64,000 nucleotides of DNA from Larus michahellis (Eukaryota > Chordata > Aves > Charadriiformes > Laridae): assembly GCF_964199755.1 (NCBI RefSeq), contig NC_133897.1:169622511-169686510 (forward strand), in the 5' to 3' direction. Below the pieces are notes generated by a model. It had not been told where the DNA came from and did no database searches. It saw nothing but the letters and a program-made list of their open reading frames with translations. Positions 44,696 through 62,099 of this stretch are shown in pieces. A program made the position numbers and the translations under genes. Every line of letters begins with the position of its first letter. Position 1 is the stretch's first letter.

Positions 44696-45481
44696 CCTAG
44701 CGGGTCGGGGTCTTGCTGCGGCTCCGCACGGCTCCCGTCGTTCCCGGTTGTCGGGGAATGGAAAAGCTCCGTCCCCTGCGTCCTTGGGGAGGTGACGGGG
44801 TTTGGCACGGGGCTCCTTGGCCTCTGCCAGGGCCGGCTCGAAGCCCTGCTCGTGCCGGGTGCCGAGAGCTGCCTCCGTCCCTGGGGCGGGCAGAGCTCCT
44901 TCCCCAGCTTTCTCCGTCTCCCTGGCCGTGTGTGTCGTGTCCCCCCCCCGGCCCCCCGGCGCGGTGGAGTTTGTCCCCGTCTCGGGAGATGCCACCTTTG
45001 TCTGTCGGCGTCTCCCTTTTACCATTTTCCTCCCACCGGGGAAGCAGCCGGAGGCCGAAGCTGGCGGGTTCGGGGCGAAACCCACGGCTCCTGGCCGCTG
45101 CCGGGGACCCTTGGGAGCCGGAGAGCCGAGGGGGTCGGCTAAATGGTGGGCCGAGCGCTTTGGTTGGGGGGGGTGGGGGGGGGTGGGGGGGCCAGGACTG
45201 GGCTGGGAAGGGACCCCACCGTCGGCTCTGCGGAGCCCGGAGCCGGCTTCCCAACGGTGACGCGCCGCCGGGCCGGTGGCTCGGGCACGGCGTCCCCCCT
45301 ACCCCGGCTCCGCTCGGCACTCCCCCGCCCCGCGCAAAAAAACCCCCCCCCCACCCCACCCCACCCTCCTCACCCTCCTCACCCTCCTCTTTCTCTCTCC
45401 AGCGTGCCTTGGTCTCACCCCAACTCATGTGTGTTTGTGTTTTTAGGGTGACTGAGGCACTGCGCCTCTGGCCGTGGAAGC

Positions 45482-45582
45482 ATGTCGGGGCCAGTGCCGA
45501 GTCGGGCCAGGGTCTATGCGGACGTGAACACTCAGAGACCCCGCGAGTACTGGGACTACGAGTCGCACGTCGTGGAATGGGG
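45482..45582 (+). CDS. CSNK2A1: CK2 alpha-type, exon 2 (start codon), residues 1-33
   Basis: The exon begins at 45447 after a TTTTTAG acceptor. The ATG at 45482 starts [20 protein letters not shown], the canonical CK2 alpha N-terminus that packs on the kinase core. Residues Ala13 and Gln18 differ from human Thr and His. It ends in phase 2 at a GTACGC donor. Confidence 0.96.
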
Positions 45583-47862
45583 GTACGCCTGGGCGGTAGG
45601 AGGGGGACCCACGGCAGGGGACGGGCGCCTTTCCGAAGGCAGGTCGTCGAGCCTCCCCCCACCCCCGGCTCCTCCTCCCCGTTGCGACCGCCGCACCCAG
45701 CGGAGCCGACAAGGCCACCTCGGTTTTCGGCGGCGGGGCCTGCGGTGGGATGCGGGTCCCGATTCCTCCCCCCCGGCCCGGGCTGGAGCCGGCGGCTCGG
45801 CGGCAGCTTTGCGAGTGGAGCCGCTTGTATTTAAGCGTTTAAAATCGAGCCGGGGCGCCCGGCTTTAAAGCAGGCAAGGGAGCGCTTAATTAAAGCAGCG
45901 TGATGAGGGTTCGGCTCGTTATCGCTGGGAAGGGCGGCCGCGACAAAACCTCGGCGCTCCCGCTCCCCGGTGTCCCCGGGGCGCTGATGGGAATGACGGG
46001 GAACGACGGCGGGGAGCTTGGCAACGGTCCTGGAGCGAAGCGGGCGGGGGGGGGCTTGAAAGGACGAAGGTGAAAGTCTCGTGGCTATTATTTTTTTTTT
46101 ATTATTATTATTTTTTTTTGGAGTTCCCCTGAGGACTCGGGTCCCGGAGAACTTGAAACGGAGGCGGCCGGTTGATGGTTTTATAGGACCGGTCGATGGG
46201 TTTGTACGTAATGATACGTGTAGGTATTAACGCAGCGCTCGTCCGCGAGAAACGCTCCCTTGCTCGGGAGCGTCGTCCTTTCCCAGCCCTGCGCCCGCCG
46301 CCGCCGCCGCCACCGGCTGAGGGAACGCCGCCCGCCGGGGACGGAGCCTGCTCTTGGTTGGGTGGTTGCGGTAAAAATCCGTAAAACGGGTCTTTTCTTT
46401 GAGGCCGCAGCGTCGGCCGGGGCACCGAGGGATGCCTTCCCGGCCTGCGACTGGCAGCTGGCAGCGGGGCTACCGCCGGGGCCGGATTAGGAGCCCTCCC
46501 CGGTGCTCTGCCTCCTCTCTGCCCAAACCCCGCCGGTCGCTGGTACCGGTGACCTAGAAACGAAAAGCTTTTTATCCACTTCCAAATCCCCCGCGCCGGG
46601 CGGAGAGCCCTGGGGAGCCCTCAGCCTCTCCGGGAGGGTAATTCCACGTCTTCCGCGAGCATCTCTGGGGGGGCGGCGGGGAGGGGGGGGGTGTTTCACC
46701 CAAACAACCCTTGCAGTGAATGTTTTCCCTAGCGTTGACCCCGTCTGCTTCCTAGCGAAGACGAGTTAATCCTTCCCCATCTGTAACGCTCCCGTTATTT
46801 GGCGGTTGCCGAGCGTCACCTCGGCTTACGGAACGGAGCAGCCGCCGCTCGGGCTGCGCTGGGGCTCCGCTGCCCCGTCCCGGTTCTCATTTTCCTCCGG
46901 GTGCTGACAGGTCACCTCCTGTCTTGTCTCCGGTAATTAGCAATTTGTGAAGTCAAGCTTTCCCAGCCTGGAACGCCCTTTTCTTTCCTCAATTTGTTCA
47001 TCCTTATCGAATCCCCGGGGGGCCCTGCGCCTGCCCTCCTCGCCGCCGCCGCGGCGGCAGAAATAATTGCCGATGCTTCTGCTCTTGCCTTGGGTGCCCT
47101 CGGGTGACCCGGGTCAGACCTTTGCGGGCGTAAATACGGGGAGGTTTCGTGGGCGAGAGTCGCTTTGTTCTGATTTCTCGTACGGAGGATTTATTTTGAC
47201 GAATCCCGGGGAGTTGGGGGGGGAGCGCGAGATCTTTTACACCTCACTACGAAGCCGGGGGGGGGTGTGTGTGTGTGTGTGTGGGGCGGGGGGTGTCCCA
47301 GGGGAATTTTTACGCCGGGTGTTTTGTCGGTCTCTGCCAGTAACCGGCTGCTGGTGGGCCCTGGGGTCCCAGGGGAGCTGGTCCTCGCAGCCCGACGCTT
47401 CCCCTTCGTAACGGGGACGAGGGAAAGGCGGAAAAGGCATCGCCTCCGGGGGGAGGAGAGCCGAGGGAGGGAGGCAGCGGAGGGGTTTTCGGCGCGCCGG
47501 CGGGGTTTGCCGGCGGGGCTGCGGTGCGTGCCAGCGCTGAGGGGGTGGCTGTCCCCGAGCTCCCCGTGACGCCTTGCGAGGTCCGGTGTCCGCCGGGGAG
47601 CTGCGGAGCCGGCGCTTTGCCGGCGGCGCTTGCGGCCGTGCTCGCCGGGGAGGGGGTCGGCGGTCGGTTTGCACCCTCCTCCGCTTCTCTCCGTCCCTCG
47701 GCACCGCGGTACGCTCCAGGTTCCGTAGGTTCTGACCCCCCCCACCCGCCCCGAGATCCGTGACCTTCCCGTGGGAGAAGCGCTGTCTGTAAAGCCGACA
47801 GGGCTGTGCTTCGAGCCGCCCGCAACCTCCTCATCCCTTTATTTCTCCGTTTTCGCCAACAG
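45583..47862 (+). other. CSNK2A1: CK2 intron 2
   Basis: No exon or transposon is seen. Two AT-rich islands stand out: 46085-46120, a T/A run with ATTATTATT, and 46925-47010, which includes GGTAATTAGCAATTTGTG. Both are candidate conserved elements. Confidence 0.6.
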
Positions 47863-47974
47863 CAACCAAGACGACTATCAGCTCGTGCGGAAACTCGGCC
47901 GGGGCAAATACAGTGAAGTCTTCGAAGCCATCAACATCACCAACAACGAGAAAGTGGTGGTGAAAATCCTCAAG
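47863..47974 (+). CDS. CSNK2A1: CK2 alpha-type, exon 3, residues 34-71
   Basis: It encodes the Gly-rich loop GRGKYSEVF and the ATP-binding VVVK motif (Lys68). The donor is AAG/GTGGGT. The sequence agrees with human CK2 alpha. Confidence 0.97.
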
Positions 47975-61717: not shown

Positions 61718-61860
61718 AAAAAAAAAAAAAAAAAAAGAGGAAAAATGGAGGTTCCTTTTTTTTTTTTTCCTTTTTTTTTCCTTTTTTTTTCCTTTTTTTT
61801 TTCCTTTTTTTTTCCTTTTTTTTTTCCTTTTTTTTTTTCCTTTTTTTTTTTTTTCCTTTT
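61718..61860 (+). repeat. A19 followed by (TTTTTTTTCC)n tract in the CK2 3' UTR
   Basis: An uninterrupted A run is followed after 20 bases by about ten T-runs separated by CC. In RNA the A run could pair with the U runs, and the tract resembles a PTB-type pyrimidine element. Confidence 0.85.
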
Positions 61861-62027
61861 ACCCCCCCCACCCCCCTTCTCTGTGCAGTAACGGTATCGC
61901 GCTCGCTGGCGATGGACCAAGGCTGAGCTCTGTTGTGTCCGTGTCGGGGTACGGAGTTAGCCGCGTTCTTCTCATGAGGATCATGGTTAGTGATGATGCA
62001 ACTACAGTGTAGAAATCTAAAATGAAT

Positions 62028-62040
62028 AATAAAATTTATT
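62028..62040. terminator. CSNK2A1: Palindromic poly(A) signal AATAAAATTTATT
   Basis: AATAAA at 62028-62033 serves the plus-strand kinase gene. TTTATT at 62035-62040 is AATAAA on the minus strand, facing the convergent DGAT1 gene. Confidence 0.75.
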
Positions 62041-62099
62041 TTCTATGTCCCTAACAGGACAGCGGGAGCGGCAGCTGCTTCTGAGGCTGGGGGGGGGGG

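Follow-up and report, generated by a model that had tools for sequence, protein, structure and literature searches.

A third CK2 catalytic-subunit gene between HSF1 and DGAT1 in the gull Larus michahellis, probably an ohnologue of CSNK2A1

An intact CK2-alpha gene between HSF1 and DGAT1

The window analysed here is a GC-rich stretch of 64 kb from the genome of the gull Larus michahellis (C2:169622511-169686510; no N; genome of 1.4055 Gb in 616 contigs), and it carries a gene for a catalytic subunit of protein kinase CK2, placed between HSF1 and DGAT1, both of which turn their 3' ends towards it. CR1-like repeats, the size of the genome and the order of the genes all suit a bird. An earlier note, made from the letters of this stretch, had described a complete kinase of the CSNK2A1 type at this place, and an exon-by-exon reading bears this out: the gene occupies 45482-61460 on the + strand and consists of 12 coding exons with 392 codons, free of stops and frameshifts. 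The same note had supposed a microchromosome, which is ruled out by the size of the contig (170,431,307 bases, 170.4 Mb); with 745 kb between the end of the window and that of the contig, the locus lies towards one end of a large chromosome. The parts of the gene are as follows.

45447..45481, + strand, 5' untranslated part of coding exon 1 (read from the sequence; AG acceptor at 45445-45446)
45482..45582, + strand, coding exon 1 (ATG; residues 1-34)
47863..47974, + strand, coding exon 2
49725..49826, + strand, coding exon 3 (T96S and A98L relative to CSNK2A1)
52534..52584, + strand, coding exon 4
53677..53736, + strand, coding exon 5 (T129S and Y131F relative to CSNK2A1)
54775..54858, + strand, coding exon 6 (HRD catalytic loop)
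57213..57323, + strand, coding exon 7 (DWG motif, activation segment)
57815..57916, + strand, coding exon 8
60329..60429, + strand, coding exon 9
60638..60786, + strand, coding exon 10
61086..61175, + strand, coding exon 11, tail (90 nt, as opposed to 87 nt in the gull's CSNK2A1)
61345..61460, + strand, coding exon 12, tail and stop TGA (absent from CSNK2A2 of the same genome)
62028..62033, + strand, AATAAA, presumed polyadenylation signal

All 11 introns have GT-AG borders, and the open reading frame totals 1179 nt. The acceptor at 45445-45446 is the reason why the earlier note began the gene at 45447; a non-coding exon further upstream is implied. The protein contains the kinase domain PF00069 (1.4e-69) with the motifs MHRDVKPHN (the HRD loop) and LIDWG (DWG replacing DFG), and the solved structures nearest to it are chains labelled casein kinase II subunit alpha, which we take to be human. 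No relatives of the gene were confirmed among the collected genome contigs and viral contigs, as is expected for a vertebrate gene. A minisatellite with units near CATCTCCATCCCTTCCCCACACCAAGGTCT lies within intron 8 (58000-59300).

Three CK2-alpha genes in one genome

A whole-genome search with the window protein as query, in which 105 of 193 candidates were scored, gave three intron-bearing CK2-alpha loci: the window gene on C2, a second at C16:5243509-5252692 and a third at C4:23280215-23303675. The remaining matches listed are 24-50% identical to the query, as expected of other kinases. The genes on C16 and C4 were assembled exon by exon from genomic DNA. That on C16 is CSNK2A1, with 391 residues; it equals human CSNK2A1 over residues 1-325 and differs from it at 8 of 391 positions overall, all of them after residue 325. 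In its tail, residues 344 and 360 belong to TP sites and residues 362 and 370 to SP sites. The gene on C4 is CSNK2A2 and is adjoined by CFAP20. As the canonical CSNK2A1 is on C16 and CSNK2A2 on C4, the window gene makes a third.

The order on C16 is SLC52A3-SCRT2-SRXN1-TCF15-CSNK2A1-TBC1D20, with the neighbours of CSNK2A1 at these positions:

C16:5200608, SLC52A3
C16:5209559, SCRT2
C16:5213399, SRXN1
C16:5221213, TCF15
C16:5257697, TBC1D20

SLC52A3 and SCRT2 were named from their position, each being the sole member of its family that was found. A second CSNK2A1 beside TCF15 and SCRT2, which the earlier note had envisaged, is thus present, together with SLC52A3. It is this gene, and not the window gene, that occupies the place of a CSNK2A1 orthologue within the SLC52A3-SCRT2-TCF15-CSNK2A1-TBC1D20 block.

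The window gene is an additional member of the known CK2-alpha family. CK2 is described with two catalytic subunits in the background section of a 2021 review of its regulation (PMC8533506), and csnk2a4 stands as the name of a further CK2-alpha gene in one zebrafish transcriptome paper (PMC7581945); it may or may not be an orthologue of the window gene.

Comparison with CSNK2A1 and CSNK2A2

The window gene shares with CSNK2A1 the layout of 12 coding exons, the long type of tail and the position and phase of all 11 introns, 10 of which also coincide with those of CSNK2A2. These common positions indicate a duplication at the DNA level, and a retrocopy is ruled out by the 11 introns. Among the three genes only the window gene and CSNK2A1 have the long tail and exon 12, which, like the introns, fits a sister relation. 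In a blastn comparison of these two genes, 10 of the 12 coding exons matched at 78-84% identity, while the introns showed no similarity save for one stray match of 31 nt. Within the kinase part the proportion of synonymous differences (pS) is 0.879, i.e. saturated, whereas that of nonsynonymous differences (pN) is 0.022; selection has therefore preserved the protein while silent sites changed. GC content at third codon positions (GC3) is 0.81 in the window gene and 0.51 in CSNK2A1.

The kinase domain is 97% identical to that of human CSNK2A1 and of the copy on C16, with 10 changes in residues 1-325 (13 relative to human in 1-330), close to the nine or so mentioned in the earlier note. They comprise T13A, A98L, Y131F and seven more. 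The tail from residue 326 onwards has indeed been rewritten, as that note had it: 28 of its 66 aligned residues are not those of the copy on C16, and there is a gap of one residue. Human CSNK2A2 and the copy on C4 belong to the same family and have A13 and F131 in common with the window gene; they are unlike it at 45 of 325 kinase residues, and their tail is short, without exon 12 or SP/TP sites. At residue 98 the window gene and maize CK2 have leucine, CSNK2A1 (human and on C16) has alanine and CSNK2A2 has isoleucine; Drosophila CK2 presumably also has leucine here.

The enzyme core is preserved. All 24 ATP-binding and catalytic positions checked are as in CSNK2A1, as are 8 of 8 substrate-basic positions (including KKKK 74-77 and R191/R195/K198) and 19 of 19 N-lobe residues that contact CK2-beta. 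Sites of control have changed: T13 is replaced by alanine, and T360 and S362 are gone. Of the tail sites, those equivalent to 344 and 370 persist, as TP at 345 and SP at 371, and SP has been gained at 376 and 382.

The paralogous blocks on C2 and C16

SCX, whose protein was read at C2:169481925, lies 186 kb from the window gene, and its relative TCF15 lies 22 kb from CSNK2A1 on C16. The R-spondins are found at 149.7 Mb on C2 (RSPO2) and 5.171 Mb on C16 (RSPO4), and a further two are on C3 and C23, the individual names being presumed. Syntenins occur solely at 128.4 Mb on C2 (SDCBP) and 5.096 Mb on C16 (SDCBP2), all 29 candidates having been scored. Three families are thus split between C2 and C16 (SCX/TCF15, RSPO2/RSPO4 and SDCBP/SDCBP2), so that C2 and the block on C16 have ancient duplicates in common, and the window gene sits where a partner of CSNK2A1 would be expected. 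A third basic helix-loop-helix (bHLH) gene near the TCF15/SCX type was seen at C11:54239443-54239622 (77% over the matched part of the domain) and is possibly another partner of this pair.

Origin of the window gene

Three separate complete CK2-alpha genes are present in this genome, and the window gene has the intron positions of CSNK2A1, paired neighbours and intact catalytic residues. We favour the explanation that the window gene is a functional third gene for a CK2 catalytic subunit and a paralogue of CSNK2A1 from the early vertebrate whole-genome duplications (an ohnologue), retained in a block like human 8q24.3 (SCX-HSF1-this gene-DGAT1) while CSNK2A1 was retained in a block like 20p13. 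On the sequence comparisons made here this is very probably correct. The proposal had already been made in the earlier note, and it is supported by the separate positions of CSNK2A1 on C16 and CSNK2A2 on C4 and by the families paired between C2 and C16.

Several results weigh against it. Trees were built from seven sequences, a thin sampling in which that of Drosophila is provisional. With full-length sequences the window gene groups with CSNK2A1 (65%), and human CSNK2A1 and the copy on C16 group to its exclusion (57%), but the alternatives are not rejected by the approximately unbiased test (p-AU 0.295 for a position as sister to CSNK2A2). When only the kinase part is used, the window gene falls nearer to CSNK2A2 in the best tree (34% support, p-AU 0.753), compared with a p-AU of 0.72 for a position outside CSNK2A1. 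Two of the three partners named beforehand for the block on C2 were also not found, and only SCX has been recovered. SLC52A2 was not found in the genome among 14 of 14 candidates scored, the one SLC52 gene being that on C16; nor was SCRT1 among the best 150 of 649 candidates, again with a single SCRT gene, on C16. Both may have been lost in this species or be unassembled.

Fourfold degenerate sites, too, give this origin less clear support. The window gene and CSNK2A1 agree at 38 of 104 such sites where composition leads one to expect 23.7 (P 0.0004-0.0006), whereas agreement does not clearly exceed composition for CSNK2A1 and CSNK2A2 (27 of 90, 20.8 expected, P 0.07) or for the window gene and CSNK2A2 (39 of 100, 33.0 expected, P 0.11). 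For this reason the data hint that the window gene and CSNK2A1 may have split later than CSNK2A1 and CSNK2A2, at the second genome doubling or afterwards. Fourfold identity proved unusable as a clock across genes, since TCF15 and SCX, taken as a yardstick, have the same letter at 30 of 47 sites and GC3 values of 0.93 and 0.95. In view of the tree of the kinase part and of these fourfold sites, we are somewhat less confident of an ohnologue and give a later duplication somewhat more weight.

The same agreement, clearer than that between CSNK2A1 and CSNK2A2, is what one would expect if CSNK2A1 had been copied by a later segmental duplication, of bird or sauropsid age, that landed beside HSF1 and then evolved fast. 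We consider this unlikely. A place as sister to CSNK2A1 of the same genome, which would agree with it and which corresponds to the nesting among bird CSNK2A1 genes envisaged in the earlier note, is neither shown nor rejected by the trees (p-AU 0.166 at full length and 0.117 for the kinase part). Yet chance would have had to bring such a copy to a place no more than 186 kb from SCX (a target of about 372 kb in a genome of 1.4055 Gb, or 2.6e-4), on the very contig that is paired with C16 in three other families as well. It would also have had to lose all intron resemblance but for the single 31-nt match, to reach saturation at synonymous sites, and to change alanine to leucine at residue 98.

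That the window gene is decaying or silent, or was created by an assembly join, is very improbable. The two single-nucleotide indels in the last exon of nearby DGAT1 (see below) do indicate that base errors or decay occur locally, but the 1179-nt frame is open across 11 canonical introns, the listed catalytic residues are retained, and only 10 of 325 kinase residues have changed against saturated synonymous change. The window is free of N and the neighbours match the human gene order, which speaks against a join. Finally, the notion that the window gene is the only CSNK2A1 of the species, relocated or evolving fast, is refuted by the separate gene on C16, identical to human over residues 1-325 and set among its usual neighbours, and we give it practically no credence.

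Predicted function and wider implications

Since the listed catalytic and CK2-beta contact positions are unchanged, the window protein is predicted to be made, to be constitutively active and acidophilic like CK2-alpha (with S/T-x-x-D/E sites), and to enter the CK2 holoenzyme by binding CK2-beta. According to the 2021 review, AKT phosphorylates T13 of CK2-alpha, ERK2 phosphorylates T360 and S362, and CDK1 phosphorylates T344, T360, S362 and S370, with Pin1-dependent localisation to the spindle (PMC8533506). Loss of T13, T360 and S362 would detach the window protein from AKT and ERK2 input, and the loss at 360/362 together with two extra SP sites may alter the mitotic tail, so that mitotic and growth-factor control would be unlike that of CK2-alpha.

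A wider scenario, for which we see slightly less than an even chance, is that the first vertebrates had a third CK2 catalytic subunit, which has since disappeared from mammals but persists in birds. This subunit would serve in the same holoenzyme but would no longer carry the AKT site or the ERK2/CDK1 pair 360/362, leaving birds with a form of CK2 free of growth-factor control and partly re-wired in mitosis. Mammals are not known to have a CK2-alpha gene between HSF1 and DGAT1.

A conserved and apparently working third subunit changes the count of CK2 catalytic subunits for at least one species. Because nature has here removed well-studied control sites and left the enzyme core in place, the importance of these sites becomes testable in vivo. 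If chicken has the gene too, work on CK2 in bird cells may have mixed two closely similar proteins.

Flanking genes and local sequence

The genes on either side are represented in the window by their last coding exons:

2655..2864, + strand, last coding exon of HSF1, the left neighbour (by match; stop read in the sequence)
63879..63971, - strand, matched part of the last coding exon of DGAT1, the right neighbour, convergent (by match)

The end of HSF1 (2864) lies 42.6 kb from the CK2-alpha gene, on the same strand, and further exons of DGAT1 lie just outside the window on the right side. The last exon of DGAT1 (63879-63990) has two 1-nt indels by which it departs from the conserved frame and returns to it; the conserved peptide can be read between the two. 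They are due either to base-calling error or to a local change of frame.

Exon-like frames on the minus strand at 8335-9950, with AATAAA at 8335-8340 and peptides such as DDDSTRGSLGSDSSSLDALNSGSF, suggest a minus-strand gene between HSF1 and the CK2-alpha gene; a Pfam search of these frames gave no significant match. Minisatellites with many periods make up much of the region 8987-30359, and strand asymmetry is extreme at 24-26 kb (GC skew 0.94). The CK2-alpha gene is flanked on either side by 344-nt arms, 20 kb apart and 96% complementary (42049-42392 and 62565-62908). They belong to a family of repeats of about 300 nt that is present in both orientations, and are a possible substrate for inversion.

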